Shown one piece after another: positions 1,654 through 27,610 of a stretch of 64,000 nucleotides of DNA (the first letter of the stretch is position 1; each line of letters opens with the position of its first letter). Origin of the DNA: Tieghemostelium lacteum (taxonomy: Eukaryota > Evosea > Eumycetozoa > Dictyosteliales > Raperosteliaceae). The notes beneath the pieces were generated by a model. It searched no databases and was not told the DNA's origin. It was given only the letters and a program-made list of their open reading frames with translations. The DNA is taken from NCBI GenBank assembly GCA_001606155.1, contig LODT01000021.1, positions 620,001 through 684,000 of the forward strand, read 5' to 3'. Made by a program: the position numbers and the translations under genes.

Positions 1654-4600
1654 TTAGTTTTTTTGTTCACCATCAATAGGTTGTATAGTGTCAGTTGATT
1701 CTCCTGGAGTTGTAGTTGTAGTTGTAATTGTAGGTGAAGGTGTAACAGCGTTTGAGGTGGATGTGAATTTACTTTTAATTTTATCAGTTATTCGACGAAT
1801 TGTTGCTGGATTCTTTTTGACTAGCAAAATGATAGCACCGGCAATAGCACCTAATACAACAACAGGTACAACAATACCAACTGCAATCTTCCAGTCATTA
1901 TTTTCTTTCTTTACAAAAGATGAGAAAGTCATTGCCAAAATGGATCCACCACTTGGGAATTGAATTGCAACATAACTTGAATACTCAGATGTATAATTGG
2001 AGAAACTATTATCACCAATGACTCTAGGTTTAATAAAAACTGGTAAAATATTGTTAGAACCATTTAAATTTAATGATCTGGTGGCAACGGACATCATCAG
2101 ATAAGAATCTCCATTTGAGAATAGAATGTTTTGGTCATGTGTTTCAATGGTTAATTTATCTTTTCCTTCATCTGTTTTAATCTCAAAGATTAAATTCATG
2201 GTGGTACCTTGGAAATTGGGGTTAGCATCCGAAGCAAACTTGATAGCAATTGAAGTTTTCATGAGTTGAAGTTGATCACCTAGGAAATTTAAAGTTGGTG
2301 GATATTCTGGAAAGTTATCAACAATTTCACCAGTGTATTCATACAGATTTAAATCTGTATATGGGTCACCCCACAAACTTTGTTTTATAACTATGGTATT
2401 AAACTTCTGTGTGAAGTTTTTAGAGTTGAATTGCATGTCTACACCATCTAGTTCAGGTACAAAGTATAGTTGTGCTGGAGATTGGGTTTCAATAAATTCA
2501 CCAACATGTGATAAAAGAACCTCAAATGATTTTCCCTTATCACCACCAAATGAAAGTACACCTAAATCATACTTTGGGGTATCAAGATGTTTTTTATCAA
2601 CTTTAATGGAACAATCATAAGATGCATATCCTTCATCACATTCACATTCCAGAAGATCATTACAACTTCCATGTTTCTCACAACCTGATGGACATGATCT
2701 ATCCATTGGTAGGAAATAGGCTATTTTCTCTGTTGCACTTTGACAACCTGCCATAGTAACGGTTACATGATAAAATAGCTCTGCATTAGTCATACCTTTT
2801 GGATTAAGTGTACAAACTAAAGTTTGATTTGAGAGGGCATACGCTTCACTACATGAGTAACCAGCAATATCAACAATATAATTGGTTCCGAAAAATTTGT
2901 CACCTAAGATTGTGACTTGACTTTGTCCATTCGAGATTATAGGTTTCACTAATGAATATAATGCTACAGCACCAGAGAAAGTATGTCCAAATTCGTATAA
3001 CAAACTTTCACCAGAGTAAACTCCTACTGTAAGTGGTTTGATTTCAGGTTCAACATCGATAACTAGGTAACCAATGCGTGCATCTCTATAATATTGATAG
3101 GGAACGTTCATTTGACCACCATTATGATACAATATTTTTACTTCTAATTTAGCAGTACCATAGGTATTATTAAATAGGTTTGTACCAAAAATTTGTCCGT
3201 AAATATTAAAATCACCTAATTTCATCCAACGAAGATCTTGATACCCAATTTCAAATGGGGTTATATTTTTAACATTAGATTTTGCACCAGACTTTGAAAC
3301 AAAATATAAGTCACCAATTGCCAAAAAAGAGAGAGGAACATCAAATCTAAGCGTATAACCCATATAATGATAGAATAACAATGGAAAACTAGGATCTATA
3401 GCACTACCTTGTTGTTTTAAACCCCAACAAAACTTACATTCGAATGTATAAGCCTCTTTAAAGAAATCACCAATATATTCAATACTACCAAATAATGGAG
3501 CTTCAGCAGTGAATGAAAAAGTAGATGGAACTGAATTTGCTAATTTTAGGAACAATTGAATCTCAGAGTCACTGAAAAGATCCAAATTTAATGCAATTGA
3601 TCTTCCATTATTAATGATTTGGTAACTTATCTGTCGAGTACCAACGTGAACAACATATTCATAATTTTCAAAGATTATACCATCAATTACACTAAATTGG
3701 TTTGAAGCATAAGAGAACTTGGTTAGAATTGGATCTGTTGAGATAATGTATTAATATCTTTGAATTTTCAATTTGGTAATTAAATTATAAAATAAAATAC
3801 ATACCTAATGTTGTAATGACATATTGGAAATTTCCATTAAATGTCAAACTAGTAGGAAACTGGGAATTCAGTTTCAAGGTTATTGATGATGAGTTCTTGG
3901 AAATGATTGTAACATTGGGTGATATTGAGGTTATTGGGAATGTATCAAGGTTCAGGTTGAAGTTAATTGTGTAGTTATCTTGAATTTGTTTTACACCACT
4001 AACCCAATTGTCAAATGGATAGATTAATTGTGGATCAGATTGAATAGTTCCATTTGGTCCATTAATAGATATAAAGATACTACCACCAATATTCAAATTA
4101 TCATATGAATATGTGAATGTATTAGTGTTATCCAAAATTCTTGAACTGTTATCTTTGAATGCTGTTCCTTGAATTTCAAATGGACCAAATAATTTAGTGG
4201 AAATTTGAATCTGACGTAATATTCTATTGATATTTAGATTGAATTTTAGAGGTGTTGATGGGATAGTGTACGATTTACTAGATGGAGTGCCTTCATGGTA
4301 CATTGTCAATTTTCCTTCAAAATAGTATCCTGAGAAATCCAAATCAGCGTAATTATTTGCAAAAAAAGTTGGAACAACATTCAGAGATCCAAATGTAAAT
4401 GTATATATATCCCAGTTTGTGAATGTTCCAATTATTTTCAATGTTCTATCTTCTCTATTAAAATCAAAACTAGTAATAATTGGTTCTTTTTAAAATTGAT
4501 TTTAGAGTTAGTTTATGTATAAAATCAAAGTAATCTAAAATTAATTAACATACCATACTTAAATTCTTTATAGAATTTCAAGATATCAATTGCGAAATAT

Positions 4601-7449
4601 TTACTGAATCCATATGTAGATATATTGAATTTTAAAGATTGATTATTGACAATTGTTGGTTTAAATTGTGGAAATTTAGTTCCACATGCTTTGGGTGAAT
4701 AAAAATTAATATAGTAATCATTGACATAAGAATCGAATATTGAAAAAGCTTCAGATGAACCGCATATGAATGTAATTGATACCTTATTTAATCTTCCAGG
4801 TGAAACTTCAGATGAGTATACCAATGTAATTTGTCCACCTTTAGAAATTGAATATTGTTGATTATTGGTGAAATAGGTGTGAGCAGTATTTGACTTACTA
4901 AAAAAAGACTGAACTTTACTACTACTGAAATTTTGTTTTAAATACCCACAAATATTAAACTCAAGATAAATCTATAGGATGCAAGATATTAGATAAATAT
5001 TCAATAAAATATATTGTTGGGGTTTTTTCAATACATACATTAGAGTAATATTTGATACTATAACTCTGACCATAGGCTAATTGTAATGGTGATAAATCAT
5101 AGTAATAGTTTTGGTCTGAAAAGAAAGAGCATTTTGAGGTGGTTCCACTGTTACTTGCTGTTACATTTTGGAAGTATAATGACATGTTTGATACAAGTTG
5201 AGAAATGTCAAAAGGAAAATTCAAAGTTACAATATCTTGATCTTGAGTAATTGTTGGTTCTAAAGTTAGGGGATATACTTGTAATGGATCACTATCAAAT
5301 TCAGTACTATTAGCATCTCCAATGAAAATAGTACCTCCTAAGTTATTCAGTTGGTCGAAGGAAATTACTAATGGTGGTGATGATTTATATGATGAATAGG
5401 TTATTGATGTATTTGTCAATGAACTTCCTTTTACTAGATAAGATCCAAATGTACTACATTTTAATGTAATTGTCTTTGATTTGTAGTCTTGTGAAATAGT
5501 GGCTATTGGTTTGATCCCAGTAATGTAATATTGTTGAAACCCAGTCTCACCAAAGTATACTTGGAAAATAGCATTTTGTGAATAAGAAGCTAAATTTAGA
5601 TCTTGACGATCAGAATTTATATTTGCTGATACTGCGAATTTTCCATATTTGAAGTTGTAATTAGTATATGGACCTTTCATACCTGTAATTGTAAGTACTC
5701 TTGTAGAGTTATTAAAATTCATGCTGCTAATCTCTGGTTCTATTGTTATAAAATCAAAAGAATGTTAATATCTTATCTCTAAGGTATCTATTAATAAAAA
5801 CTTACTGTAGAGAACTGGAATCTTGGTATTAAGTTTATTAATATAGATATAGGTGGGGTAGTAGTTGCTTAATTGAGAGAAAATAATGGTGTTGTTGAAT
5901 ACTTCTTGATAGACTAGTGCTTCGGTGTATTGTGAGTTTTTATATAACAGTAAATTTTCAATTGGGAATACTGAATCATTAAAATTCCATTGAATTGTCA
6001 TTACGTCAGCTGATGATGTTTGAGATAATATCAGTTTTTGTGGGTAAACAAGTTGGGGATTACTATCAAAATTCGAATTATCAAGAGAAATGAATATATC
6101 TCCACCGAGAGAATTCAACTGATCAAACTGATACACAACAGATGTTGATCCACCTTGACCATTTGTTAGAGTGGTGATTGAACTTGGTAACAATACACTT
6201 CCTTTAATTGTGAAATTTCCAATATAGTTTGTAGAAATCGTTATTTTTTTGTTGGTGTGATCTTGAATTACTTTTAAAATTGGTTTAGTTCCAGTGATGA
6301 AATAGCTCTTTGGTGTTGATAAATAGTATATCTTCAAATCTCCACTATCAGTGTAGAACTGTAATGACAGTGTAATATTATTAACTGAGAAATATGTTGG
6401 TGTCAATGTATAATCACCAAGAGTGAACTTGTATTGATCAATAGTTGTAAAAGTACCCAACAATGTTACTAATCTAGTTGAATTATTAAAACTAAATTTT
6501 GAAATCATTGGTTCTATAAAATTTAATGAATTTAATGTTAAAATATAATATCATATAAATTAAAATAAATAGTAGAGATAACACATACCAACTGGAGGAA
6601 TAGGGATGGTAAGATTTAGATTAGGTATTTCGATAGATGATGGATATCTATTTCTTACATAATTAAAAGTCATGATGTTATTGGTTGGAGTTTCGTAGAT
6701 TAAAGAGAAACTAGGACCAGGTAATTTAGTTGGACATGCATATTTAGTTTCAATGGTGGTGTAGTATTGGCATGTTGATTTTTCAACTAGTGATTTAATA
6801 GACAGATCAACTGTTGGATTACACAAGATATTGTAATATACCCCTCTTTGGCAAGATGTTGATGTAACGATATCAGAGTTGTAGAAAAGGGTAATGTTAT
6901 TGGAACTGTTTATAGTGTAGGTATTTCTAAATGATCTTCCAATAACAAATTTGGTTGATCCGTCAACTTGGATGGACTGAATTTCGGGGACAACTGGATT
7001 AACACCGTTTGTAACACTTGAAGATAATTTACCACACAAATTAAAATAGTAGAAATAATTCGAAGCATCCTGTTTGTGGGGTGAGGGGTAGAAAAAAGAA
7101 TTTCATAATTTTGATTAATTTGTGGTGTGGGATGTATTTTTTTAAATGAATTTAAACTTACAAAATTAACATAGGGAGCATTAGTGGTGTTAAGTAATTG
7201 TAGTGATGTTAAATCATAGTAATCATGATCAAATGAAACGAATTTACACTCTGAATTCCAACCAGTATTAGTGGTTATATCAGCAATGATATTTCCAAGT
7301 GGATTTTGTGTGAAATCAACACCAGAAAAAGTGATTGAAATTGTTTCAGCATTCTGTGTGATAACAGTGTTGATCGATTGTGACAGCACTGCACTGTTAT
7401 AATAAAACAGTGATAATAATATAAAAATACTTAAATTAGAAATATTCAT
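1654..7449 (-). CDS. ComC-like EGF/TIG type I membrane protein, array copy A
   Basis: Seven exons: 7162-7449, 6589-7069, 5806-6513, 5039-5739, 4554-4971, 3805-4485, 1654-3734. Intron phases are 0,1,1,0,1,1. The joined frame is intact and gives 1785 residues. The N-terminus is a signal peptide ending near AVLSQ. Exons 1-6 form a long ectodomain of beta-rich modules, many opening with E/K-P-x-I followed by an N-S-T-R-type strand, with many N-glycosylation sites. The last exon carries an IPT/TIG domain (about residues 1345-1425), a six-cysteine EGF-like domain (CPSGC...CECDEGYASYDC, about 1440), one membrane helix (AVGIVVPVVVLGAIAGAII, about 1710-1735) and a Thr/Ser/Pro-rich cytoplasmic tail. 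This layout matches the dictyostelid ComC-like/TIG-EGF surface proteins implicated in cell-cell communication; the ligand is unknown. It is first in the array in window order and lies tail-on behind the RBD gene. Confidence 0.88.
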
Positions 7450-7641
7450 GTATATTGAAATGTCTGATCAAAAAAAAAGGTTGCGAAGGTGAGTTTTTTA
7501 TTATAAAAAAAAAATCTGAACAAGAGTAACGAACATCGATTTTTTAGAACCTCCAAAATTATAAAAAAAATTACGATTCATATCAAGATTAATCTAGATT
7601 TGGAATGTGATGGTATTGTATTGGGACTATAAATTCATGAA

Positions 7642-7822
7642 TTTAAATAGTAATACCAGTGGCTTCTTGATATTTCTTTAATAATACCTTTTTGAACTCT
7701 TCTGATTTTCCCAAATGGAAGCTGCATGGGTATTGAATGGCGATTCGTTGTTTGGTTCACCTAAAAGCTCTGACTTTGAATCAAATTCACAAATTTAATA
7801 ATCAATACACCTTTTTATTATT
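7642..7822 (-). pseudogene. UBE2C relic between copies A and B
   Basis: This stretch matches the 3' end of the intact E2 gene at 27809-28216 (C-terminal EATGITI, the W-E-N-Q-E-E helix, the L-L-G-E-P-N stretch). It then jumps from the SLLGEP region straight to the E2 intron, so about 300 bases including the active-site cysteine are gone. It is a dead remnant carried along by tandem duplication of the ComC-like gene. It shares with the C-D relic the reading aaaagctctg, where the intact gene has aaaagactctg, so both descend from one already damaged copy. Confidence 0.85.
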
Positions 7823-8045
7823 AGTAGTATTACAATGATGGTTATGTAGATGAGTGTTACTAGAATTGATTTGAATTTTACTACTGTAAAAACTTTCTGT
7901 TATTATCTCTTCTGTTATCATCTTCTGATATTATCTTCATGATTTATCATTTAATATATATTTGTACAAAATAAATCCTTAAAGAAAATATCTAGGTTTA
8001 CTCTTGCTACTATTATAACCGATAACCTTTGGTATTTTTATTCTT
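7823..8045 (-). pseudogene. 5'-end relic of the RBD-domain gene, A-B gap
   Basis: This closely matches bases about 1348-1553, the start-codon-proximal part of exon 1 plus upstream sequence of the first gene. It begins abruptly inside coding sequence at tagtagtattacaatgatgg, fused to E2 intron sequence ending cacctttttatta. It cannot encode the protein because everything downstream is missing. It marks the left boundary of the duplicated unit, which therefore ran from inside the RBD gene through a ComC-like gene into the UBE2C intron. The C-D gap has the same junction. Confidence 0.85.
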
Positions 8046-8145
8046 TATAAAAAAGAATTTTTTTTTTATTTTTTTAAAATCTGAATTGCGATAGTGTTTC
8101 CAATTACATCATAATATTTAAAAATCTGAAGAATTTAGTTTATCC

Positions 8146-11100
8146 TTAGTTTTTTTGTTCACCATCAATAGGTTGTATAGTGTCAGTTGATTCTCCCGAA
8201 GTTGGGGTTGTGGTTGTAATTGTAGGTGAAGGTGTAACAATGTTTGAGGTGGGGGTGGATGTGAATTTACTTTTAATTTTATCAGTTATTCGACGAGTTG
8301 CTGGATTCTTTTTGACTAGGAAAATGATAGCACCGGCAATAGCACCCAATACAACAACAGGTACAACAATACCAACTGCAATCTTCCAGTCATTATTTTC
8401 TTTCTTTACAAAAGATGAGAAAGTCAGTGCCAAAACGGACCCACCACTTGGGAATTGAATTGCAACATAACTTGAATACTCAGATGTATAATTGGAGAAA
8501 CTATTATCACCAATGACTCTAGGTTTAATAAAAACTGGTAAAATATTGTTAGAACCATTTAAATCCATTGATCTGGTGGCAACAGACATCATCAGATAAG
8601 AATCTCCATTTGAGAATAGAATGTTTTGGTCATGTGTTTCAATGGTTAATTTATCTTTTCCATCATCTGTTGCAATCTCAAAGATTAAATTCATGGTGGT
8701 ACGTTGGAAATTACTTTGGATATTAGGGTTAGCATCCGAAGCAAACTTGATAGCAACTGAAGTTTTCATGAGTTGAAGTTGATCACCTAGGAAATTTAAA
8801 GTTGGTGGATATTCTGGAAAGTTATCAACAATTTCACCAGTGTATTCATACAGATTTAAATCTGAATATGGGTCACTCCACAAATCTTGTTTTATAAGAA
8901 CTATGGTATTAAACTTCTGTGTGAAGTTTTTGAGGTCGAATTTCATGTCTACACCATCTAGTTCAGGTACAAAGTAGAGTTGTGCTGGATATTGCATTTC
9001 AGTAAATTCACCAACATGTGATAAAAGAACTTCAAATGATTTGCCCTTATCACCACCAAATGAAAGTACACCTAAATCATACTCTGGGGTATCAAGATGT
9101 TTTTTATCAACTTTAATGGAACAATCATAAGATGCATATCCTTCATCACATTCACATTCCAGAAGATCATTACAACTTCCATGTTTCTCACAACCTGATG
9201 GACATGATCTATCCATTGGTAGGAAATAGGCTATTTTCTCTGTTGCACTTTGACAACCTGCCATAGTAACGGTTACATCATAAAATAACTCTGCATTAGT
9301 CATACCTTTTGGATTAAGTGTACAAACTAAAGTTTGATTTGAGAGTGCATTCGCCTCAATACATGGGTAACCAGCAATATCAACAACATAGTTGGTTCCG
9401 AAAAAGTTGTCACCTGAGATTGTGACTTGACTTTGTCCATTCGAGATTATAGGTTTCACTATTGAATTTAATGTTACAGCAGGAAAAGTGAATCCATATT
9501 CAAATATCAAACTTTCACCATAGTAAACTTGCAATGTAAGTGGTTTGATTTCAGGTTCAGCATAGATAACTAGGTAACCAATGAGACCATCTCTATTATA
9601 TTGATAGGGTACGTTCATTTGACCACCATCATTATACATAATTTTTACTTCTAATTTAGCAGGACCATGGGTATTATTAAGTAGGTTTGTACCAACAAAT
9701 TGACCGTAAATCATAAAATCAAGTGCAGTATAATCTTCAAAACGCATATCAAATGGGGTTATATTTATAACATTAGATTTTGCACCAGACTTCGAAACAA
9801 AATATAAGTCACCAATTGCCAGAAAAGGGATAGGAATATAAAATCTAAGAAAACTACCATAATAACTATTGAATACCAATGGAAAACTAGGGTCTATAGC
9901 ACTACCTTGTTGTTTTAAACCCCAACAAAACTTACATACGAAAAAAGCCTCATCTCTATATCCAAAATCAAAAATATTAAATAATGGAGCTTTAGCTGTG
10001 AATGAAAAAGTAGATGGAACTGAATTTGCTAATTTTAGGAACAATTGAATCTCAGAGTCACTGAAATTATCCAAATCTACTGAAATTGAGCTTCCATTTT
10101 TTATAATTTGGTAATTTATCTGTTGAGTACCAACCTGAATAATATATTCATAGTTTTCAAAGAATATACCTTCAATTACACTAAATTGATTTGAAGCATA
10201 AGTGAAATTGGTTACAATTGGATCTGTTGAGAAAATGTATTAATATCTTTGAATTTTCATTTTGGTAATTAAATTATAAAATAAAATACATACCTAATGT
10301 TGTAATGACATATTGGAAATTTCCATTAAATGTCAAACTAGTGGGGAACTGGGAATTCAGTTTCAAGGTTATTGATGATGAGTTCTTGGAAATGATTGTA
10401 ACATTGGGTGATATAGAGGTTATTGGGAATGTATCAAGGTTCATGTTGAAGTTAATTGTGTAGTTATCTTGAATTTGTTTTACACCACTAACCCAATCGT
10501 CAAAAGGATAGATTAATTGTGGATCAGATTGAATAGTTCCATTAGGTCCATTAATAGATATAAAGATACTTCCACCAATATTCAAATTATCATATGAATA
10601 TGTGAATGTATTATTGTTATCCAAAATTCTTGAACTGTTATCTTTGAATGCTGTTCCTTGAATTTCAAATGGACCAAATAATTTAGTGGAAATTTGAATC
10701 TGACGTAATATTCTATTGATATTTAGATTGAATCTTAGAGGTGTTGATGGAATGGTGTACGATTTACTGGATGGAGTGCCCTCATAGTACATTGTCACTT
10801 TACCTTCAAAATAGTATCCTGAGAAATTCAAATCAGCGTAATTACTTGTAAAAAAAGTTGGAACTACATTCCGAGGTCCTAATGTAAATGTATATTTATC
10901 TCTGTTTGTGAATGTTCCAAATATTTTCAATGTTCTATCTTCTCTATTAAAATCAAAACTAGTAATAATTGGTTCTTTTTACAATTGATTTTAGAGTTAG
11001 TTTAAGTATAAAATCAAAGTAATCTAAAATTAATTAACATACCATAATTAAATTCTTTATAGAATTTCAAAACATCAATTTCGAAATATTTACTGAATCC

Positions 11101-13967
11101 AAATGTAGATATATTGAATTTTACAGATTGATTATTGACAATTGTTGGTTTAAATTGTTCTAGTTTAGTTCTACATCCTTTGTATGAATAAAAATCAAAA
11201 TCGATATTATTGATATTATTATTGTTATTATAGGCATATGACATTCCTTCAGTATCATAAGATGATATACATTTGAATGTAATTGATACCTTATTTAATT
11301 TTCCAGGTGAAACCTCAGATGAGTATATCAATGTAATTAGTCCATCGCTAGAAATTGAATATTGTTGATTATCGGTGAAATAGGTGTGGGCAGTATTTGA
11401 GTTTCTGAAATAAGATTGAACTTTACTACTACTGAAATTTTGTTTTAAATACCCACAAATATTAAACTCAAGAAAATCCTATAGGATGAAAGAGATTAGA
11501 TAAATATTCAATAAAATATAAAATATTTTTGGGGTTTTTTCAATACATACATTAGAGTAATACATGTCTGCACTATACTTCTGGCCATATGCTAATTGTA
11601 ATCGTGATAAATCATAGTAATAGTATTGGTCTGAAATGAAAGTACATTTTGAAGTGTTTCCACTGTTACTTGCTAGTGAAATATTATGGTAGAATAATGA
11701 CATGCTTGATACAAGTTGAGAAATGTCAAAAGGAAAATTCAAAGTTACAATATCTTGATCTTGAGTAATTGTTGGTTCTAAAGTTAGGGGATATACTTGT
11801 AATGGATCACTATCAAATTCTGTACTATTAGCATCTCCAATGAAAATAGTACCTCCTGAGTTATTCAGTTGGTCGAAGGAAATTACTAATGGTGGTGATG
11901 ATGTATATGATGAATAGGTTATTGATGAGTTTGTCACTGAACTTCCTTTTACTAGATAAGATCCAAAATTACTACATTTTAATGTAATTGTCTTTGATTT
12001 ATAGTCTTGTGAAATAGTGGCTATTGGTTTGAAACCAGAAATGTAATATTGTTGAAACCCAGTCTCACCAAAGTATACTTGGAAAATAGCACTTTGTGAA
12101 TAAGAAGCTAAATTTAGATCTTGACGTTCAGAATATACATATACTTTTCCAGATACGGCTATTTTTCCAAATTTGAAGTTGTAATTAGTATATGGACCCT
12201 TCATACCTGTAATTGTAAGTACTCTTGTAGAGTTATTAAAATTCATGCTGCTAATCTCTGGTTCTATTGTTATAAAATCAAAAGAGTGTTAATATCTTAT
12301 CTTATCTTTAAGGTATCTATTAAATAAAAACTTACTGTAGAGAACCGGAAACATGGTATTGAGTAGCTTAATATAGATATAGGTGGGGTAGTAATTGCTT
12401 AATTGAGAGAAAAGAATGGTGTTATTGAATACTTCTTGATAGTTTAGTGCATCGGTGTATTGTAGATTTTTGTATAACAGTAAATTTTCAATTGGGAATA
12501 CTGAATTATTAAAATTCCATTGAATTGTCATTACGTCAGCTGATGATGTTTGAGATAATATCAATTTTTGTGGGTAAACAAGTTGGGGAGTACTATCAAA
12601 ATTCGAATTATCAAGAGAAATGAATATATCTCCACCGAGAGAATTCAACTGATCAAACTGATACTCAACAGATGTTGATCCACCTTGACCATTTGTTAGA
12701 GTGGTGATTGAACTTGGTAACAATACACTTCCTTTAATTGTGAAATTTCCAATGTAGTTTGTAGAAATCGTTATTTTTTTGTTGGTGTGATCTTGAATTA
12801 CTTTTAAAATTGGTTTAGTTCCAGTGATGAAATAGCTCTTTGATGTTGATAAATAGAATATCTTCAAATCTCCACTATCAGTGTAGAACTGTAATGACAG
12901 AGTAATATTATTAACTGAGAAATATGTTGGTGTCAATGTATAATCACCAAGAGTGAACTTGTATTGATCAATAGTTGTAAAAGTACCCAACAATGTTACT
13001 AATCTAGTTGAATTATCAAAACTAAATTTTGAAATCATTGGTTCTATAAAATTTAATGAATTTAATGTTAATATATAATATATTATAATTTAGAATTCTA
13101 TTGAGATATTACATACCAACTGGAGGAATAGGGATGGTAAGACTTAGATTAGGTATTTCGATAGATGATGGATATCTATTTCTTGCATAATTAAAAGTCA
13201 TGATGTTATTGGTTGGAGTTTCGTAGATTAAAGAGAAACTAGGACCAGGTAATTTAGTTGGACATGCATATTTAGTTTCAATGGTGGTATAGTATTGGCA
13301 TGTTGTTGTTTCAACTAGTGATTTAATAGATAGATCAATTGTTGGATTACACAAGATATTGTAATATGCCCCTCTTTGGCATGTTGTCGATGTAACGATA
13401 TCAGAGTTGTAGAAAAGTGTAATGTTATTGGAACTGTTTATATTGTATGTATTTCTAAATGATCTTCCAATAACAAATTTGGTTGAACCGAAAACTTGGA
13501 TGGACTGGATTTCAGTTACATCATATGGATAAACAGAGTTTGTAACACTTGAAGATAATTTGCCACACAAGTTAAAATAGTAGTAATTATTCGAAGCATC
13601 CTGTTTGTGGAGTGAGGGGTAAAAAAAAATTTTACAATCAGTGTGGTGTGAAGATTTTTTTAAATGAATTTAAACTTACAAAATTAACATAGGGAGCATT
13701 TGTGGTGTTAAGTAATTGTAGTGGTGTTAAATCATAGTAATCATGATCAACTGAAACGAATTTACACTCTGAATTCCACCCAGTATTAGTGGTTATATCA
13801 GCAATGATATTTCCAAGTGGATTTTGTGTGAAATCAACACCAGAAAAAGTGATTGAAATTGTTTCAGCATTCTGTGTGATAACAGTGTTGATCGATTGTG
13901 ACAGCACTGCACTGTTATAATAAAACAGTGATAATAATATAAAAATACTTATTTTAGAAATTTTCAT
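8146..13967 (-). CDS. ComC-like EGF/TIG type I membrane protein, array copy B
   Basis: Exons: 13680-13967, 13117-13600, 12336-13043, 11551-12263, 11043-11478, 10294-10974, 8146-10223, joining without a break into 1795 residues, the longest of the four. The start chosen (MKISKISIF) aligns with the other copies; an in-frame ATG lies six codons upstream at 13985. Exon 5 is 18 bases longer than in copy A and carries an Asn-rich insertion (YNNNNNINNIDFDFYS). Exon 4 is 12 bases longer, with YVYSE near its start. In the last exon B resembles D (LRFYIPIPFLA, RSMDLNGSN, EFTEMQYPAQ) more than its neighbours A and C, but its end (GEQKN) matches A. TIG, EGF-like, membrane helix and tail are all present. 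Confidence 0.88.
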
Positions 13968-14184
13968 GTATTGAATGTCGGTCAAAGAAAAGGTTGCGAA
14001 AGTGAGTTTTTAAATCGACATTTCGTTTTTTATTAGAAAAAAAAAAATCTGTACAAGAGTAACGTTTTGAATTTCGATTTTTTTTTTTTAACCAAAATTA
14101 TTAAAAAAAAAATACGATTCATATCAAGATTAATCTAGATTTGGAAAGTGATGGTATTGTATTGGGACTATAAATTAATGAATT

Positions 14185-14587
14185 TAAATAGTAATACCAG
14201 TGCCCTCTTGATATTTCTTTAATAATACCTTTTTGAACTCTTCTTGATTTTCCCAAATGGAAGCCGCATAGTTACAACGAATCGCCATTCAATTCAAAAG
14301 TTTCCATTCTGATCAACATTAGGATGAAAACATGAAGTTTCAAATTTGACAAAAGGTGGTTTGAATGGGTAATCAGTGGGGAATGTTAATTTTAATTTGA
14401 AATCTAAATTATCATAGACTGTTCCAGGAGCACCTTTAATAGTACCTATCCAATTAAATATGTTATCACCCTCGGGAAATGCTGAAACTCCTGGGCTTGC
14501 TGAAACCTTTAATCAAATCCATAAATTTATAACAATCAATACACCTTTTTATTATATAAATAACTGAATGAGAATCTGCCATCTTTA
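14185..14587 (-). pseudogene. UBE2C relic between copies B and C (includes exon 1 remnant)
   Basis: Both ends of the E2 gene are recognisable. The C-terminal codons lie near 14195, and the central HPNVDQNG stretch through [10 protein letters not shown] runs from about 14300 to 14515. The intron follows, then a stub of exon 1 ending at the former start codon (ctgccatctttat). Two internal deletions have removed the WENQEE-SLLGEP part and most of exon 1. The second runs between two copies of aactga, which suggests a microhomology-mediated loss. This relic retains more of the upstream side than the A-B and C-D ones, so it comes from a duplication with a different breakpoint. Confidence 0.85.
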
Positions 14588-14607
14588 TGAATATCAATAA
14601 TTATGAA

Positions 14608-14673: not shown

Positions 14674-14677
14674 TTAA

Positions 14678-14950: not shown

Positions 14951-15017
14951 AAGAACTTAATTTATTTTTTTCCAATTACATCATGATGTTTAAAAATCTG
15001 AAGAATTTAGTTTATCC

Positions 15018-18000
15018 TTAGTGTTTTTGTTCACCATCAATGGGTTGTATAGTGTCAGTTGATTCTCCTGAAGTTGGGGTTGTGGTTGTAATTGTAGGTG
15101 TAGGTGAAGATGTAACAGTGTTTGAGGTGGGGGTGGATGTGAATTTACTTTTAATTTTATCAGTTATTCGACGAGTTGCTGCTGGATTCTTTTTGACTAG
15201 CAAAATGATAGCACCGGCAATAGCACCTAATACAACAACAGGCACAACAATACCAACTGCAATCTTCCAGTCATTATTTTCTTTCTTTACAAAAGATGAA
15301 AAAGTCATTGCCAAAACGGATCCACCACTTGGGAATTGAATTGCAACATAACTTGAATACTCAGATGTATAATTGGAGAAACTATTATCACCAATGACTC
15401 TAGGTTTAATAAAAACTGGTAAAATATTGTTAGAACCATTTAAATTTAATGATCTGGTGGCAACAGACATCATCAGATAAGAATCTCCATTTGAGAATAG
15501 AATGTTTTGGTCATGTGTTTCAATGGTTAATTTATCTTTTCCTTCATCTGTTGCAATCTCAAAGATTAAATTCATGGTATTACCTTCGATATAAGGGTTA
15601 GCATCCGAAGCAAACTTGATAGCAACTGAAGTTTTCATGAGTTGAAGTCGATCACCTAGGAAATTTAAAGTTGGTGGATATTCTGGAAAGTTATCAACAA
15701 TTTCACCAGTGTATTCATACAGATTTAAATCTGTATATGGGTCACCCCACAAATTTTGTTTTAGAACTATGGTATTAAACTTCTGTGTGAAGTTTTTAGA
15801 GTTGAATTGCATGTCTACACTATCTAGTTCAGGTACAAAGTATAGTTGTACTGGATATTGCATTTCAATAAATTCACCAATATGTGATAAAAGAACCTCA
15901 AATGATTTTCCCTTATTACCACCAAATGAAAGTACACCTAAATCATACTCTGGGGTATCAAGATGTTTTTTATCAACTTTAATGGAACAATCATAAGATG
16001 CATATCCTTCATCACATTCACATTCCAGAAGATCATTACAACTTCCATGTTTCTCACAACCTGATGGACATGATCTATCCATTGGTAGGAAATAGGCTAT
16101 TTTCTCTGTTGCACTTTGACAACCTGCCATAGTAACGGTTACATGATAAAATAACTCTGCATTGGTCATACCTTTTGGATTAAGTGTACAAACTAAAGTT
16201 TGATTTGAGAGTGCATACGCTTCACTACATGAGTAACCAGCAATATCAACAACATAGTTGGTTCCGAAAAAGTTGTCACCTGAGATTGTGACTTGACTTT
16301 GTCCATTCGAGATTATAGGTTTCACTATTGAATTTAATGTTACAGCAGCGAATACGTATTCGCTAGTTTCATATAACAAACTTTCACCATAGTAAAGTCG
16401 TAATGTAAGTGGTTTGATTTCAGGTTCAACATCGATATCTAGATAACCAATGAGTCCATATCTATAATATTGATAGGGTACGTTCATTTGACCACCATCA
16501 CCATACATTATTTTTACTTCTAATTTAGCAGGCCCATAGCTATTATTAAATAGGAATGTGCCATAAATTTGACCGTAAATCTTAAAAACAGGTGCAGAAT
16601 AATATGAATAACCTATTCCATATGGGTTTATATTTATAACATTAGATTTTGCACCAGACTTTGAAACAAAATATAAGTCACCAATTGCCAAAAAAGAGAG
16701 AGGAACATCAAATCTAAGCGAAGAAAAATAACTATAGAATTTCAATGGAAAACTAGGATCTATAGCACTACCTTGTTGTTTTAAACCCCAACAAAACTTA
16801 CATTCGTATGTATAAAAGTCAGAACCAGGATAATCAATGGTTTTAAAAAATGGTGCTTCAGCTATGAATGAAATAGGAGATGGAACTGAATTTGCTAATT
16901 TTAGGAACACTTGAATCTCAGAGTCACTGAAAATATCCAAATCTAATGCAATTGATCTTCCATTATTTCTGATTTGGTATTTTATCTGTTGAGTACCAAC
17001 CTGAATAATATATTCATAGTTTTCAAAGAATATACCTTCAATTACACTAAATTGATTTGAAGCATAAGTGAAATTGGTTACAATTGGATCTGTTGAGAAA
17101 ATGTATTAATATCTTTGAATTTTCATTTTAATAATTAAATTATAAAATAAAATACATACCTAATGTTGTAATGACATATTTGAAATTTCCATTAAATGTC
17201 AAACTAGTGGGGAACTGGGAATTCAGTTTCAAGGTTATTGATGATGAGTTCTTGGAAATGATTGTAACATTGGGTGATATAGAGGTTATTGGGAATGTAT
17301 CAAGGTTCATGTTGAAGTTAATTGTGTAGTTATCTTGAATTTGTTTTACACCACTAACCCAATTGTCAAATGGATAGATTAATTGTGGATCAGATTGAAT
17401 AGTTCCATTTGGTCCATTAATAGATATAAAGATACTTCCACCAATATTCAAATTATCATAAGAATATGTGAATGTATTAGTGTTATCCAAAATTCTTGAA
17501 CTGTTATCTTTGAATGCTGTTCCTTGAATTTCAAATGGTCCAAATAATAATTTAGTGGAAATTTGAATCTGACGTAATATTCTATTGATATTTAGATTGA
17601 ATTTTAGAGGTGTTGATGGGATAGAGTACGATTTACTGGATGGAGTGCCTTCATAGTACATTGTCACTTTACCTTCAAAATAGTATCCTGAGAAATCCAA
17701 ATTAATGTAATTACTTGCAAAAAAAGTTGGAACAACATTCAGAGATCCAAATGTAAATGTATATTTATCACTGTTTGTGAATGTTCCAATTATTTTCAAT
17801 GTTCTATCTTCTCTATTAAAATCAAAACTAGTAATAATTGGTTCTTTTTAAAATTGATTATAGATTTAGTTAATATAAAATCAAAGTTTTTTAAAATTAA
17901 TTCACATACCATAATTAAATTCTTTATAGAATTTCAAAAAATCAATTGCAAAATATTTACTGAATCCAAATGTAGATATATTGAATTTTAAAGATTGATT

Positions 18001-20807
18001 ATTGACAATTGTTGGTTTAAATTTTTCTAGTTTAGTTCTACATCCTTTGGTTGAATAAAATTCAAAATAGATATTATTGCTGTTATTAGTGGCACCATAT
18101 ATTCTATCAGCTGCATAATATGCACATGTGAATGTAATTGATACCTTATTTAATTTACCAGGTGAAATTTCAGATGAGTATATCAATGTAATTAGTCCAT
18201 CGCTAGAAATTGAATATTGTTGATTATCGGTGAAATAGGTGTGAGCAGTATTTGAATTTCTGAAATAAGATTGAACTTTACTACTACTGAAATTTTGTTT
18301 TAAATACCCACAAATATTAAACTCAAGAAAATCCTATAGGATGAAAGAGATTAGATAAATACTCAATAAAATATAAAATATAATTGGGTTTTTTCAATAC
18401 ATACATCAGAGGCATAAATGTCTGCACTATACTTCTGGCCATATGCTAATTGAAATGGTGATAAATCATAGTAATAGTATTGGTCTGAAATGAAAGTACA
18501 TTTTGAAGTGTTTCCACTGTTACTTGCTAGTTGAATATTGTGTTTGTAAAATGACATGTTTGATGCAAGTTGAGAAATGTCATAAGGAAAATTCAAAGTT
18601 ACAATATCTTGATCTTGAGTAATTGTTGGTTCTAAAATGATGGGATATACTTGTAATGGATCACTATCAAATTCAGTACTATTAACATCTCCAATGAAAA
18701 TAGTACCTCCTGAGTTATTCAGTTGGTCGAAGGAAATTACTAATGGTGGTGATGATGGATATGATGAATAAATTATTGATGTGTTTGTCAATGAACTTCC
18801 TTTTACTAGATAAGATCCAAAAGTACTACATTTTAACGTAATTGTATTTGAAGTGTGGTCTTGAGAAATAGTGGCTTTTGGTTTGATCCCAGAAACGGAA
18901 TATTGTTGAAACAAAGTCTCACCAAAGTATACTTGGAAAATAGAACTTTGTGAATAAGAAGCTAAATCAATATCCAGGTTATCATTATTTACTTTTGCTG
19001 ATACTGCGAATTTTCCATATTTGAAGTTGTAATTAGTGTATGGACCCTTCATACCTGTTATTTTTAGTACTCTTGTATCTGTATATAAAGTGACGGTTTT
19101 AATCTCTGGTTCTGTTGTTATAAAATCATAAGAGTGTTAATATCTTTTCTCTAAGGTATCTATTAAATAACAACTTACTGTAGAGAACTGGAATCTTGGT
19201 ATTGAGTAGCTTAATATAGATATAGGTGGGATAGTAGTTGCTTAATTGAGAGAAAAGAATGATGTTTTTGAATACTTCTTGATAGTTTAGTGCTTCGGTG
19301 TATTGTGGATTTTTGTATAACAATAAATTTTCAATTGGGAATTCTGAATCATTAAAATTCCATTGAATTGTCATTACGTCAGCTGATGATGTTTGAGATA
19401 ATATCAGTTTTTGTGGGTAAACAAGTTGGGGAGTGCTATCAAAATTCGAACTATCAAGAGAAATGAATATATCTCCACCGAGAGAATTCAACTGATCAAA
19501 CTGATACTCAACAGATGTTGATCCACCTTGACCATTTGTTAGAGTGGTGATTGAACTTGGTAACAATACACTTCCTTTAATTGTGAAATTTCCAATATAG
19601 TTTGTAGAAATCGTTATTTTTTTGTTGGTGTGATCTTGAATTACTTTTAAAATTGGTTTAGTTCCAGTGATGAAATAGCTCTTTGGTGTTGATAAATAGA
19701 ATATCTTCAAATCTCCACTATGAGTGTACAATTGTAATGACAGTTTAATACTATTAACTGAGAAAAATGTTGGTGTCAATGTATAATCACCAAGAGTGAA
19801 CTTGTATTGATCAATAGTTGTAAAGGTACCCAACAATGTTACTAATCTAGTTGAATTATCAAAACTAAATTTTGAAATCATTGGTTCTATAAAATTTAAT
19901 GAATTTAATGTTAATATATAATATATTATAATTTAGAATACATAGTAGAGATAACACATACCAACTGGAGGAATAGGGATGGTAAGACTTAGATTCGGTA
20001 TTTCGATAGATGATGGATATCTATTTCTTGCATAATTAAAAGTCATGATGTTATTGGTTGGAGTTTCGTAGATTAAAGAGAAACTAGGACCAGGTAATTT
20101 AGTTGGGCATGCATATTTAGTTTCAATGGTGGTGTAGTATTGGCAATTTGATTGAACTAATGATTTAATTGACAGATCAATTGTTGGATTACACAAGATA
20201 TTGTAATATACTCCGCTTTGGCATGATGATAAAACGATATCAGAGTTGTAGAAAAGTGTAATGTTATTGGAACTGTTTATAGTGTAGGTATTTCTAAATG
20301 ATCTTCCAGTAACAAATTTGGCTGAACTGTAAACTTGGATGGACTGGATTTCAGGGACATCTGAATAAACACCGTTTGTAACACTTGAAGATAATTTACC
20401 ACACAAATTAAAATAGTAGTAATTATTCGAAGCATCCTGTTTGTGGGGGTAGAAATAAAGAATTTCATAATTTTGATTAGTGTGGTTTTGGATGATTTTT
20501 TAAATGAATTTAAACTTACAAAATTAAAATAGGGAGCATTTGTGGTGTTTAGTAATTGTAGTGGTGTTAAATCATAGTAATCATGATCAACTGAAACGAA
20601 TTTACACTCTGAATTCCACCCAGTATTAGTGGTTATATCAGCAATGATATTTCCAAGTGGATTTTGTGTGAAATCAACACCAGAAAAAGTGATTGAAATG
20701 GTTTCAGCATTCTGTGTGATAACAGTGTTGATCGATTGTGACAGCACTGCACTGTTATAATAAAACAGTGATAATAATATAAAAATACTTAAATTAGAAA
20801 TATTCAT
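15018..20807 (-). CDS. ComC-like EGF/TIG type I membrane protein, array copy C
   Basis: Exons: 20520-20807, 19962-20436, 19179-19886, 18405-19111, 17910-18333, 17160-17843, 15018-17089; intact frame, 1785 residues. The signal peptide and 5' flank are nearly identical to copy A. The core of the last exon also follows A (LRFDVPLSFLA, RSLNLNGSNN, NLWGDPYTDLN). The membrane-proximal tail (TSNTVTSSPTPTITTTTPTS, GEQKH end) is identical to that of copy D. Exon 4 opens differently from the other copies: KPEIKTVTLYTDTR replaces KPEISSMNFNNSTR. Exon 6 has one extra codon. The EGF-like and TIG domains are unchanged. The mosaic suggests sequence exchange with D at the 3' end. Confidence 0.88.
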
Positions 20808-20997
20808 GTATATTGAAATGTCTGATCAAAAAAAAAGGTTGCGAAGGTGAGTTTTTTATTATAAAAAAAAAAATCTGTACAAGAGTAACGAATATCGATT
20901 TTTTAGAACCTCCAAAATTATAAAAAAAATTACGATTCAGATCAAGATTAATCTAGATTTGGAATGGTATTGTATTGGGACTATAAATTCATGAATT

Positions 20998-21448
<451 letters not shown>

Positions 21449-21680
21449 TAGTAGTATTACAATGATGGTTATGTAGATGAGTGTTACTAGAATTGATTTG
21501 AATTTTACTACTGTAAAAACTTTCTGTTATTATCTTTTCTGATATCATCTTCTGATATTATCTTGATTTATCATTTAATATATATTTGTACAAAATAAAT
21601 CCTTAAAGAAAATATCTATGTTTACTCCTGCTACTATTATAACCGAAAAATTTTCAAGACCACCGATAACTTTTGTGTAT
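21449..21680 (-). pseudogene. 5'-end relic of the RBD-domain gene, C-D gap
   Basis: This matches bases about 1348-1553 of the first gene, starting at the same fusion point as the A-B relic (tttttattatta joined to gtagtattacaatgatgg). A short extra segment (aaaaattttcaagaccaccg, near 21647) is unique to this copy. It is non-coding debris marking the end of a duplicated unit. Confidence 0.83.
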
Positions 21681-21791
21681 TTTTATTCTTTAAAAAAGAA
21701 TTTTTTTTTTATTTTTTTTTTAAAATCTGGATGGTGATGGTGTTTACAATTAAATCATAATATTTAAAAATCTGAAGAATTTAGTTTATCC

Positions 21792-24700
21792 TTAGTGTTT
21801 TTGTTCACCATCAATGGGTTGTATAGTGTCAGTTGATTCTCCTGAAGTTGGGGTTGTGGTTGTAATTGTAGGTGTAGGTGAAGATGTAACAGTATTTGAG
21901 GTGGGGGTGGATGTGAATTTACTTTTAATTTTATCAGTTATTCGCCGAGTTGCTGCTGGATTCTTTTTGACTAGCAAAATGATAGCACCGGCAATAGCAC
22001 CTAATACAACAACAGGCACAACAATACCAACTGCAATCTTCCAGTCATTATTTTCTTTCTTTACAAAAGATGAGAAAGTCATTGCCAAAATGGACCCACC
22101 ACTTGGGAATTGAATTGCAACATAACTTGAATACTCAGATGTATAATTGGAGAAACTATTATCACCAATGATTCTAGGTTTAATAAAAACTGGTAAAATA
22201 TTAGAACCATTTAAATCCATTGATCTGGTGGCAACAGACATCATCAGATAAGAATCTCCATTTGAGAATAGAATGTTTTGGTCATGTGTTTCAATGGTTA
22301 ATTTATCTTTTCCATCATCTGTTGTAATCTCAAAGATTAAATTCATGGTATTACTTTGGATATTAGGGTTAGCATCCGAAGCAAACTTGATCGCAACTGA
22401 AGTTTTCATGAGTTGAAGTTGATCACCTAGGATATCTAAATTTGGTGGATATTCTGGAAAGTTATCAACAATTTCACCAGTGTATTCATACAGATTTAAA
22501 TCTGAATATGGGTCACCCCACAAATTTTGTTTTATAAGAACTATGGTATTAAACTTCTGTGTGAAGTTTTTGAGGTCGAATTGCATGTCTACACTATCTA
22601 GTTCAGGTACAAAGTAGAGTTGTGCTGGATATTGCATTTCAGTGAATTCACCAACATGTGACAAAAGAACCTCAAATGATTTTCCCTTATCACCACCAAA
22701 TGAAAGTACACCTAAATCATACTCTGGGGTATCAAGATGTTTTTTATCAACTTTAATGGAACAATCATAAGATGCATATCCTTCATCACATTCACATTCC
22801 AGAAGATCATTACAACTTCCATGTTTCTCACAACCTGATGGACATGATCTATCCCTTGGTAGGAAATAGGCTATTTTCTCTTGTGCACTTTGACAACCTG
22901 CCATAGTAACGGTTACATGATAAAATAACTCTGCATTAGTCATTCCTTTTGGATTAAGTGTACAAACTAAAGTTTGATTTGAGAGTGCATACGCTTCACT
23001 ACATGAGTAACCAGCAATATCAACAACATAGTTGGTTCCGAAAAAGTTGTCACCTGAGATTGTGACTTGACTTTGTCCATTCGAGATTATAGGTTTCACT
23101 AATGAATTTAAAGTTACAGCAGGAAAAGTGTATCCATATTCAAATAACAAACTTTCGCCATAGTAAACTCGTAATGTAAGTGGTTTGATTTCAGGTTCTA
23201 CATTGATATCTAAGTAACCAATGAGTCCATCTCTTTTATATTGATAGGGTACGTTCATTTGACCACCATCATTATACAATATTTTTACTTCTAATTTAGT
23301 AGGCCCATAGCTATTATTATGGGTATTATCAATTAGGAATGTACCAACAATTTGACCGTAAATCTTAAATTCAGGTACAGTATAATCTTGAAAACGCATG
23401 TCAAATGGGGTTATATTTATAACATTAGATTTTGCTCCAGATTTCGAAACAAAATATAATTCACCAATTGCCAGAAAAGGGATAGGAACATAAAATCTAA
23501 GAATACTGGAATAATAATAACTAGAGTTATAGAATACCAATGGATAACTAGGATCTATAGCACCACCTTGTTGTTTTAAACCCCAACAAAACTTACATTC
23601 GAAATAAACATCACCAGTATAACCAGGATCACCAAAAAATAATGGAGGTTCAGCTGTGAATGAAATAGGAGATGGAACTGAATTTGTTAAATTTAAGAAC
23701 ACTTGAATCTCAGAGTCACTGAAAATATCCAAATCTACTGAAATTGAGCTTCCATTATTAATGATTTGGTAACTTATCTGTTGAGTACCAACCTGTATAA
23801 TATATTCATAATTTTCAAAGAATATACCTTCAATTACACTAAATCGATATGAAGCATAAGTGAAATTGGTTACAATTGGATCTGTTGAGAAAATGTATTA
23901 ATATCTTTGAATTTTCATTTTGGTAATTAAATTATAAAATAAAATACATACTTAATGTTGAAACAACATAATTGAAATCTTCATTAAATGTCAAACTAGT
24001 GGGGAACTGGGAATTCAGTTTCAAGGTTATTGATGATGAGTTCTTGGAAATGATTGTAACATTGGGTGATATAGAGGTTATTGGGAATGTATCAAGGTTC
24101 ATGTTGAAGTTAATTGTATAGTTATCTTGAATTTGTTTTACACCACTAACCCAATTGTCAAATGGATAGATTAATTGTGGATCAGATTGAATAGTTCCAT
24201 TTGGTCCATTAATAGATATAAAGATACTTTCACCAATATTCAAATTATCATAAGAATATGTGAATGTATTAGTGTTATCCAAAATTCTTGAACTGTTATC
24301 TTTGAATGCTGTTCCTTGAATTTCAAATGGACCAAATAATTTAGTGGATATTTGAATCTGACGTGAAGTTCTATTGATATTTAGATTGAATTTTAGAGGT
24401 ATTGATGGGATTGTGTACGATTTACTGGATGGAGTGCCTTCATAGTACATTGTCACTTTACCTTCAAAATAGTATCCTGAGAAATTCAAATCAGCGTAAT
24501 TACTTGCAAAAAAAGTTGGAGCTACATTCAGAGATCCAAATGTAAATGTATATTTATCTCTGTCTGTGAATGTTCCAATTATTTTCAATGTTCTATCTTC
24601 TCTATTAAAATCAAAACTAGTAATAATTGGTTCTTTTTAAAATTGATTTTAGAGTTAGTTAATGCATAAAATCAAAGTAATCTAAAATTAATTCACATAC

Positions 24701-27610
24701 CGTAATTAAATTCTTTATAGAATTTCAAAACATCAATTTCGAAATATTTACTGAATCCAAATGTAGATATATTGAATTTTACAGATTGATTATTGAAAAT
24801 TGTTGGTTTAAATTGTTCTAGTTTAGTTCTACATCCTTTGTATGAATAAAAATCTAAATAGATATTATTGCTGCTATTCAAGGCATATGATAAAGATCCT
24901 TCATCATAAATTGCGCATCTGAATCTAATTGATGCCATATTTAATTTTCCAGGTGAAACCTCAGATGAGTATATCAATGTAATTAGTCCATCGCTAGAAA
25001 TTGAATATTGTTGATTATCGGTGAAATAGGTGTGAGCAGTATTTGAATTTCTGAAATAAGATTGAACTTTACTACTACTGAAATTTTGTTTTAAATACCC
25101 ACAAATATTAAACTCAAGAATATCCTATAAGATACAAGGGATTAGATAAAAACTCAATAAAATATAAAATATAATTGGTTTTTTTTAATACATACATCAG
25201 AGTAATACATGTCTGCACTATACTTCTGGCCATATGCTAATTGAAATTGTGATAAATCATAGTAATAGTATTGGTCTGAAATGAAAGTACATTTTGAAGT
25301 GTTTCCAGTGTTACTTGCTAGTGAAATATTATGGTAGAATAATGACATGCTTGATACAAGTTGAGAAATGTCAAAAGGAAAATTCAAAGTTACAATATCT
25401 TGATCTTGAGTAATTGTTGGTTCTAAAGTTAGGGGATATACTTGTAATGGATCACTATCAAATTCAGTACTATTAGCATCTCCAATGAAAATAGTACCTC
25501 CTGAGTTATTCAGTTGGTCGAAGGAAATTACTAATGGTGGTGATGATGTATATGATGAATAGGTTATTGATGTGTTTGTCAATGAACTTCCTTTTACTAG
25601 ATAAGATCCAAAATTACTACATTTTAATGTAATTGTCTTTGATTTGTAGTCTTGTGAAATAGTGGCTTTTGGTTTGAAACCAGAAACGGAATATTGTTGA
25701 AACCCAGTCTCACCAAAGTATACTTGGAAAATAGAACTTTGGGAATAAGAAGCTAAATTTAGATCTTGACGATCATAATATACATTTGCTGATACGGCTA
25801 TTTTTCCATATTTGAAGTTGTAATTAGTATATGGACCCTTCATACCTGTTATTGTAAGTACTCTTGTAGAGTTATTAAAATTCATGCTGCTAATCTCTGG
25901 TTCTATAATTATAAAATCAAAAGGGTGTTAATATCTTATGTTATCTTTAAGGTATCTATTAAATAAAAACTTACTGTAGAGAACTGGAATTTTGATATTG
26001 AGTAGCTTAATATAGATATAGGTGGGGTAGTAATTGCTTAATTGAGAGAAAAGAATGGTGTTGTTGAATACTTCTTGATAGTTTAGTGCATCGGTGTATT
26101 GTGGATTTTTGTATAACAGTAAATTTTCAATTGGGAATAATGCATCATTAAAATTCCATTGAATTGTCATTACGTCAGCTGATGATATTTGAGATAATAT
26201 CAGTTTTTGTGGGTAAACAAGTTGGGGAGTACTATCAAAATTTGAATTATCAAGAGAAATGAATATATCTCCACCGAGAGAATTCAACTGATCAAACTGA
26301 TACACAACAGATGTTGATCCACCTTGACCATTTGTTAGAGTGGTGATTGAACTTGGTAACAATACACTTCCTTTAATTGTGAAATTTCCAATATAGTTTG
26401 TAGAAATCGTTATTTTTTTGTTGGTGTGATCTTGAATTACTTTTAAAATTGGTTTAGTTCCAGTGATGAAATAGCTCTTTGGTGTTGATAAATAGAATAT
26501 CTTCAAATCTCCACTATCAGTGTAGAACTGTAATGACAGTGTAATATTATTAACTGAGAAATATGTTGGTGTCAATGTATAATCACCAAGAGTGAACTTG
26601 TATTGATCAATAGTTGTAAAGGTACCCAACAATGTTACTAATCTAGTTGAATTATCAAAACTAAATGTTGAAATCATTGGTTCTATAAAATTTAATGAAT
26701 TTAATGTTAATATATAAATATCATATAAATTAGAATACCAAGTAGAGATATTACATACCAACTGGAGGAATAGGGATGGTAAGATTTAGATTAGGTATTT
26801 CGATAGATGATGGATATCTATTTCTTGCATAATTAAAAGTCATGATGTTATTGGTTGGAGTTTCGTAGATTAAAGAGAAACTAGGACCAGGTAATTTAGT
26901 TGGGCATGCATATTTAGTTTCAATGGTGGTGTAGTATTGGCATGTTGATTTTTCAACTAGTGATTTAATAGACAGATCAACTGTTGGATTACACAAGATA
27001 TTGTAATATGTTACTCTGTGGCATGTTGATGTTTCAGAGTTGTAGAAAAGAGTAATGTTATTGGAACTGTTTATAGTGTAGGTATTTCTAAATGATCTTC
27101 CAGTAACATATTTGGTTGAACCGAAAACTTGGATGGACTGGATTTCAGGTACATCATATGGATAAACACCGTTTGTAACACTTGAAGATAATTTACCACA
27201 CAAATTAAAATAGTAGTAATTATTCGAAACATCCTGTTTGTGGGGTGAGGGGGTAAAAAAAAATTTCAAAATTTTGATTAGTGTGGTGTGAAGATTTTTT
27301 TCAATGAATTTAAACTTACAAAATTAACATAGGGAGCATTAGTGGTGTTTAGTAATTGTAGTGGTGTTAAATCATAGTAATCATGATCAACTGAGACGAA
27401 TTGACATTCTGAATTCCACCCAGTGTTACTGGTTATATCAGCAATGATATTTCCAAGTGGATTTTGTGTGAAATCAACGCCAGAAAAAGTGATTGAAATG
27501 GTTTCAGCATTCTGTGTAATAACAGTGTTGATCGATTGTGACAGCACTGCACTGTTATAATAAAATAGTGATAATAATATAAAAATACTTAAAATAGAAA
27601 ATCTATTCAT
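21792..27610 (-). CDS. ComC-like EGF/TIG type I membrane protein, array copy D
   Basis: Exons: 27320-27610, 26759-27233, 25975-26682, 25196-25902, 24701-25124, 23952-24632, 21792-23881; intact frame, 1791 residues. The start MNRFSILSIF is placed by alignment with the other copies; an upstream in-frame ATG exists at 27640. The last exon is the longest of the four, with an extra codon run around NTHNNSYGPTKLEV. Its core follows copy B (FYVPIPFLA, FDMRFQDYT, RSMDLNGSN), while its C-terminal tail is identical to C. The exon 6 donor is A|GTATGT rather than G|GTATGT, changing the junction residue to Asn. This is the copy next to the intact UBE2C gene, which suggests that its upstream flank is the ancestral one. 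Confidence 0.88.

Follow-up and report, generated by a model that had tools for sequence, protein, structure and literature searches.

The window analysed here is a stretch of 64,000 nucleotides from the genome of the dictyostelid Tieghemostelium lacteum (assembly GCA_001606155.1, contig LODT01000021.1, positions 620,001 to 684,000 of the forward strand). Between its positions 1654 and 27610 it contains four genes, here named A to D, arranged head-to-tail on the minus strand. Gene A (7449-1654) encodes a protein of 1785 residues, gene B (13967-8146) of 1795, gene C (20807-15018) of 1785 and gene D (27610-21792) of 1791. Gene models were established by aligning the four units and transferring splice sites between copies. 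Each gene is composed of seven exons, located at 7449-7162, 7069-6589, 6513-5806, 5739-5039, 4971-4554, 4485-3805 and 3734-1654 in gene A, and at 13967-13680, 13600-13117, 13043-12336, 12263-11551, 11478-11043, 10974-10294 and 10223-8146 in gene B. All introns are of the GT-AG type, 66 to 92 bases long, with phases 0,1,1,0,1,1, and each reading frame closes at a single terminal stop. The predicted proteins share 86.7-91.2% pairwise identity. The structures are not a product of chance, because all 27 indels (insertions or deletions) found between copies within exons are multiples of three, compared with one out of 13 within introns. The evidence supports the view that A-D are intact, selected, tandem-duplicated genes, predicted to encode single-pass surface proteins. 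In all these respects (coordinates, exon number, phases, protein lengths, integrity of every copy) the models agree with a first-pass annotation of the window. That description had left out the lectin-type domain encoded by the first two exons together with its degenerate copy, a second array on another contig, and the intact and decayed UBE2C-like genes, all reported below. A genome search with exon 7 of gene A identified only A-D on contig C18, and the second set on contig C4.

Exons 1 and 2 of the window genes encode, as judged by sequence profiles, a mannose-6-phosphate-receptor-homology (MRH, or P-type lectin) domain, indicated below as MRH1. In gene A it spans 6590-7383 (minus strand, residues 23-256), with the intron 7161-7070 inside. 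The domain copies considered are 13, nine of them first domains from both arrays and four second domains from A-D. When a profile built on six of the nine first domains was compared with PDB, the best match was CI-MPR (E 4e-12); eight of the twelve sequences listed were CI-MPR, and the remaining four were antibody chains, with E >0.5. A mixed profile, including eight of the 13 copies (six first and two second domains), retrieved CI-MPR as eight of the 11 sequences listed, with a whole-chain E of 3.3e-22 in which several receptor domains are summed, the best single domain reaching about 1e-8. The Pfam CIMR family recognized MRH1 of gene A with 25.4 bits, over a cut-off of 22.5, and six of eight MRH members matched it at E <=10. 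Specificity was controlled by searching PDB with profiles built on the repeats and on exon 7, none of which retrieved CI-MPR. Taken at the sequence level, these comparisons argue for MRH homology over a domain of about 150 residues.

Positions corresponding to the sugar-binding residues were located by transferring the CI-MPR numbering to the PDB alignment of the mixed profile. The residues which we take to bind sugar in domain 3 of CI-MPR are Gln348, Arg391, Glu416 and Tyr421; the residues aligned with them in gene A are Q127, R171, E192 and Y198. Gln and Tyr are present in all nine first domains, Arg and Glu in eight each, and the full set of four in eight of nine. Copy C carries Ser and Gln at the aligned Arg and Glu positions, and the spacing from the Glu to the next Cys is variable among first domains. 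The retention of these residues points to a putative sugar site.

A second, degenerate MRH domain was found in the middle of each window gene. In gene A it lies at 4554-5251 (minus strand), and is formed by the tail of exon 4 and by exon 5, with the intron 5038-4972 inside. Only the Gln is kept of the four aligned residues in the second domains of A-D, all of which lack the Arg and the C-x-Y motif. By profile comparison, whole second and first domains are related with a probability of 97%, against no more than 1.3% in 20 shuffled controls, and the exon 5 part is related to the exon 2 part with a probability of 53%, against no more than 2.6% in 20 such controls. The likeness between exons 5 and 2 rests on the alignment and on this profile comparison; a tblastn search of C4 with exon 5 gave no match at E 0.01. 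The second domain is embedded in a stretch of repeats (3805-6513 in gene A, minus strand), composed of three copies of one unit of about 160-235 residues, contained in exon 3, in the first part of exon 4 and in exon 6. Exons 3 and 4 thus carry extra copies of the exon-6 repeat, and the end of exon 4 corresponds to an exon-1-like piece. The unit appears TIG-like by eye; no Pfam match was found for exon 3 of gene A, and no credible PDB relative for the repeat unit.

The large exon 7 encodes the remainder of the protein. Downstream of a replacement hot spot, discussed below, a TIG-like stretch (from about residue 1340) and an EGF-like segment (residues 1439-1467) are located in gene A at 2611-2994 (minus strand). 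The Pfam TIG family was detected in exon 7 of B, C and D (23.8, 23.2 and 22.7 bits, respectively, vs a cut-off of 20.9), and was not found in exon 7 of gene A, nor in gene E of the C4 array. The EGF-like segment contains six cysteines and gives several weak EGF matches, below Pfam cut-offs in every protein scanned. The juxtamembrane region that follows has no Pfam match. The transmembrane segment of gene A, at 1816-1890 (minus strand), corresponds to residues 1708-1732 and leaves a tail of 53 residues; in all four proteins, 19-residue windows exceeding the hydropathy cut start at residues 1702-1724. An N-terminal hydrophobic stretch exceeds the same cut only in D. Of the domain list originally proposed, the membrane segment therefore holds for all copies and TIG for B, C and D.

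The receptor tails are short and rich in Ser and Thr, and those of A-D contain neither Tyr nor Leu-Leu. Sorting receptors for mannose-6-phosphate carry Tyr- or di-Leu-based cytoplasmic sorting signals; the tails of A-D thus have no classical sorting signal. This bears on the idea that the genes encode a receptor sorting lysosomal enzymes, that is, the mannose-6-phosphate receptor which D. discoideum, as reported in PMC6023087, appears to lack. An MRH domain with the aligned residues and a single-pass topology would suit such a role, but diversification in two arrays would be unexpected for a sorting receptor, and this explanation is considered very improbable.

The genes had also been labelled as ComC-like. 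No Pfam match to ComC_SSD (PF22933) was found at E <=10 in the exon-7 proteins of A-D and of C4 gene E. A profile of the post-EGF region, compared by hhalign with ten ComC_SSD sequences from the same genome, reached a probability of 0.4%, like its shuffled controls (20 column shuffles, up to 0.67%); the profile is shallow, and this is a weak test. Membership of A-D in the ComC family is consequently not supported, and the label was abandoned. Exon 7 of gene A faintly matches one ComC_SSD protein (C4:97449-98693, E 1.5e-5, 24% identity). When searched against the 1,400-base stretch of that protein, the post-EGF region alone produced nothing below E 0.19, and a query extending from TIG to the membrane aligned collinearly across EGF and the post-EGF region (296 columns, 20% identity, E 0.035 in a search limited to this stretch). 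At this level of similarity, the array genes may be very remotely related to ComC_SSD proteins. The comC gene itself is described as restricted to group 4 dictyostelids (PMC4931340). The genome contains at least 150 ComC_SSD matches, none of which, among those listed, falls in the window; they occur in tandem clusters, for instance on contigs C21, C24, C29, C31 and C34. TIG matches are likewise at least 150 genome-wide.

On contig C4, the second array comprises E, F, G and I, all full-length (four exons, 1162-1171 residues), together with a short paralogue, H, and a broken copy in the vicinity of 803310-804693. Exons 1, 2, 6 and 7 of the window genes have their equivalents in those of C4, phases included, and the exon-7 proteins of the full-length copies are 41-42% identical to that of gene A. 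Genes E, F, G and I are thus members of the same family as A-D, but with one MRH domain and one repeat. Paralogue H (C4:699663-701504, two exons, 593 residues) is further reduced: its exon 2 runs straight into the EGF-like part, and the protein consists only of MRH, EGF-like part, juxtamembrane region and membrane helix. Since exons 3 and 4 are made of additional exon-6 repeats and of an exon-1-like piece, the window genes hold an internal repeat that is absent from the C4 genes. We infer that it was gained by the former rather than lost by the latter, the simpler C4 layout being probably ancestral.

A search of the genome with Pfam CIMR listed a single place over cut-off, on contig C2; it is uninformative on the number of MRH proteins, because the window's own intron-split domains were missed. 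Next to this hit lies a similar open reading frame (ORF), so that two small, apparently secreted MRH-like ORFs stand side by side on C2 (L057, 1099-1890 and 2370-3056); one more of this kind, recognized by eye, is on C40 (L058, 2552-3295). An ORF of 1500 residues on C31 (L059, 140-4642) resembles by eye the MACPF/perforin type, its C-terminal end appearing to consist of two MRH-like repeats.

Variation between copies is unevenly distributed along the genes. The main replacement hot spot of gene A occupies the start of exon 7 (3022-3732, minus strand, to residue 1330), and a homologous hot spot is present in the C4 array. Within the 1116 columns shared by the two arrays, 72 are variable in both, vs 40.7 expected, and not one of 1076 circular shifts attains the observed value. 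The hot spots are also regions of high tree length, and gap columns are concentrated in them. The NG86 method returned omega above 1 in some windows, but in view of the AT-rich codon use these values were given no weight; M2a and M1a were instead compared under a codon model with F3x4 frequencies. Whole-gene omega is 0.61 in each array. M2a was preferred over M1a with a 2dlnL (twice the log-likelihood difference) of 91.3 in the window array and 49.6 in the C4 array; with five codons masked on either side of every gap, the values fell to 16.0 and 17.4, respectively. Null simulations on region-specific trees, only six per array, gave maxima of 5.74 and 3.18. In the unmasked fits, six of the 16 sites of high probability in the window array belong to the second MRH domain and ten to the start of exon 7, and the 11 of the C4 array fall at the start of exon 7 (7), in MRH1 (2), in the repeat (1) and in the TIG region (1). 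Masked regional omega ranges between 0.26 and 0.71 in the window array and between 0.42 and 0.97 in the C4 array. Diversifying selection is therefore probable, although not proven, and the earlier suggestion of a clustered, diversifying set is sustained, with the qualification that diversification is uneven along the genes.

The same data were considered in the light of a simpler explanation, according to which the copies are recent duplicates drifting under relaxed constraint, and the hot spots are regions tolerant to change. The fact that no region exceeds an omega of 1 once gaps are masked, and the clustering of gap columns in the hot spots, agree with it. Yet in each array M2a remains the better model on the masked data, beyond all twelve null simulations, and synonymous changes at invariant residues are spread along the genes without significant clustering (p 0.16 and 0.98; with 114 and 76 variable columns, power is limited). 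Drift is accordingly held to be an unlikely account. The lack of synonymous clustering also indicates that age alone does not account for the hot spots, and the hypothesis that they are older, less converted segments was set aside as unsupported. Some exchange between copies is likely, since neighbouring informative sites share groupings above chance (p 0.010 and 0.006).

The pattern of constraint is relevant to the role of the MRH domain. In both arrays MRH1 shows the lowest masked omega among extracellular regions (0.29 in the window array, 0.42 in C4), and its four aligned residues are kept in eight of nine first domains though the exon-7 proteins of the two arrays are only 41-42% identical. 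Both observations are at odds with the possibility that, in the same receptors, MRH is a protein-binding or structural module without sugar, and that recognition is a protein-protein affair entrusted to the variable region, as for TgrB1-TgrC1. For such a module speak the loss of aligned residues in the second MRH copies and in MRH1 of copy C, the location of the main hot spot outside MRH1, and the precedent of CI-MPR, in which carbohydrate recognition is attributed to only four of 15 MRH domains (PMC7481795). This alternative is regarded as a serious one, if on the doubtful side.

The interpretation which we favour, tentatively and with a confidence slightly short of an even chance, is that A-D are paralogous type I surface receptors, tipped by an MRH domain and equipped with a diversifying domain, which probably recognize cells or prey. 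From the outside inwards, each protein would present MRH1, a repeat, a second repeat joined to the degenerate MRH, a third repeat, the fast-evolving start of exon 7, TIG, one EGF-like module, the juxtamembrane region, the membrane helix and the Ser/Thr-rich tail. The conserved tip would bind mannose-type N-glycans in the copies with four aligned residues (A, B and D), the ligand being perhaps the methyl-phosphomannose displayed by dictyostelids; the variable region would give every copy its own partner; and, acting jointly, the two may allow a cell to recognize other amoebae or prey on contact. A contact receptor for a mannose-type glycan and a variable partner is suggested by the combination of conserved MRH tip, variable region and single-pass topology.

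Several observations weigh against this interpretation. Masked omega is below 1 in every region of both arrays, much of the selection signal sits beside indels, and exchange between copies can inflate selection tests. The assignment of sugar-binding identities depends on the transfer of CI-MPR numbering to a profile alignment, and the proportion of carbohydrate-recognition domains in CI-MPR, quoted above, tells in the same direction. A single C4 first domain reaches CI-MPR in PDB at E 0.31 only, and the second MRH domain of gene A, alone as query, has no PDB match. Structure predictions of exon 2 and of exon 7, each from four rows, had a mean pLDDT of 31 and 28, respectively; both are unusable, and the fold assignment rests on sequence profiles. 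As for the modest selection statistics, they neither rule recognition in nor out, because tgrB1/C1 are also reported to have dN/dS <1 and no strong selection signature (PMC12324515).

A more specific proposal is that both arrays encode phosphomannose-reading surface lectins, which would read the methyl-phosphomannose coat of other cells independently of TgrB1/C1. Dictyostelium N-glycans are described as bearing methylphosphate on terminal mannose, and mannose-6-phosphate is reportedly known from amoebae and vertebrates only (PMC11795075). In this narrow form the proposal is judged rather improbable. About equally improbable is that the proteins are phagocytic or adhesion receptors for bacteria, their copies being diversified by the variety of prey or pathogens and not by kin recognition. 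A surface lectin-like architecture with diversifying copies would be as compatible with recognizing prey as with recognizing self, and the 76 IPT/TIG proteins counted in T. lacteum, under the name Dictyostelium lacteum (PMC4931340), imply that allorecognition need not be the role of all; TgrB1/C1, which are TIG proteins with a known role, nevertheless act between amoebae, functioning in kin recognition according to PMC5055082.

The flanks of the receptor genes retain traces of their duplication. An intact gene for a UBE2C-like ubiquitin-conjugating enzyme (E2), with one intron, is located at 27809-28351 (minus strand), about 200 bases upstream of gene D. Decayed copies on the same strand were found upstream of gene C (20880-21448, 92% identical to the intact locus), of gene B (14054-14599, in pieces 85-97% identical) and, as a remnant, of gene A (7518-7821, in pieces 88-90% identical). 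Because an intact or decayed UBE2C-like copy precedes each of the four receptors, the duplicated unit probably consisted of one UBE2C-like gene and one receptor gene, D being the receptor beside the surviving enzyme gene. The rest of the window (30560-63740) contains, by Pfam, genes for a folate dehydrogenase/cyclohydrolase, a MUS81-like nuclease, COBRA1/NELF-B, a GTPase and a BRCT protein, as well as a PHD-finger protein just below the Pfam cut-off and a TPR-like protein, also below it.

If the favoured interpretation is correct, the dictyostelid repertoire of surface receptors would include a carbohydrate-reading member, a candidate partner for amoebal methyl-phosphomannose. The array would represent a candidate recognition locus in a probable group 3 species, outside the group of D. 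discoideum (group 4). Two arrays with the same hot spot, and a short form without the hot-spot region, constitute a natural set for assigning roles to the parts. Among the matches listed in the open-licence literature, no title or beginning of an abstract describes a dictyostelid MRH domain joined to TIG or EGF.

The array genes may be compared with three known systems. They resemble CI-MPR in the MRH domain, as detected by the profile of first domains alone, in its cysteine pattern, in the four aligned residues and in being predicted single-pass membrane proteins. They differ from it in having one good and one degenerate MRH domain rather than 15, in the added repeats, variable region, TIG and EGF-like parts, in the absence of a recognizable sorting signal in the tail, and in their organization as tandem diversified copies. 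With ComC and the ComC_SSD proteins they share the order of TIG, EGF-like segment, juxtamembrane region and membrane helix, and one faint collinear match, but not a ComC_SSD domain detectable by Pfam or profile comparison. Like TgrB1 and TgrC1, they would encode TIG-bearing surface proteins in fast-evolving, duplicating clusters; tgr genes are reported to duplicate fast, and tgrB1/C1 to be paired diverging genes with a common promoter (PMC12324515). Unlike them, the array genes carry an MRH tip and, instead of diverging pairs sharing a promoter, form a series of one kind of gene, repeated head-to-tail on a single strand.

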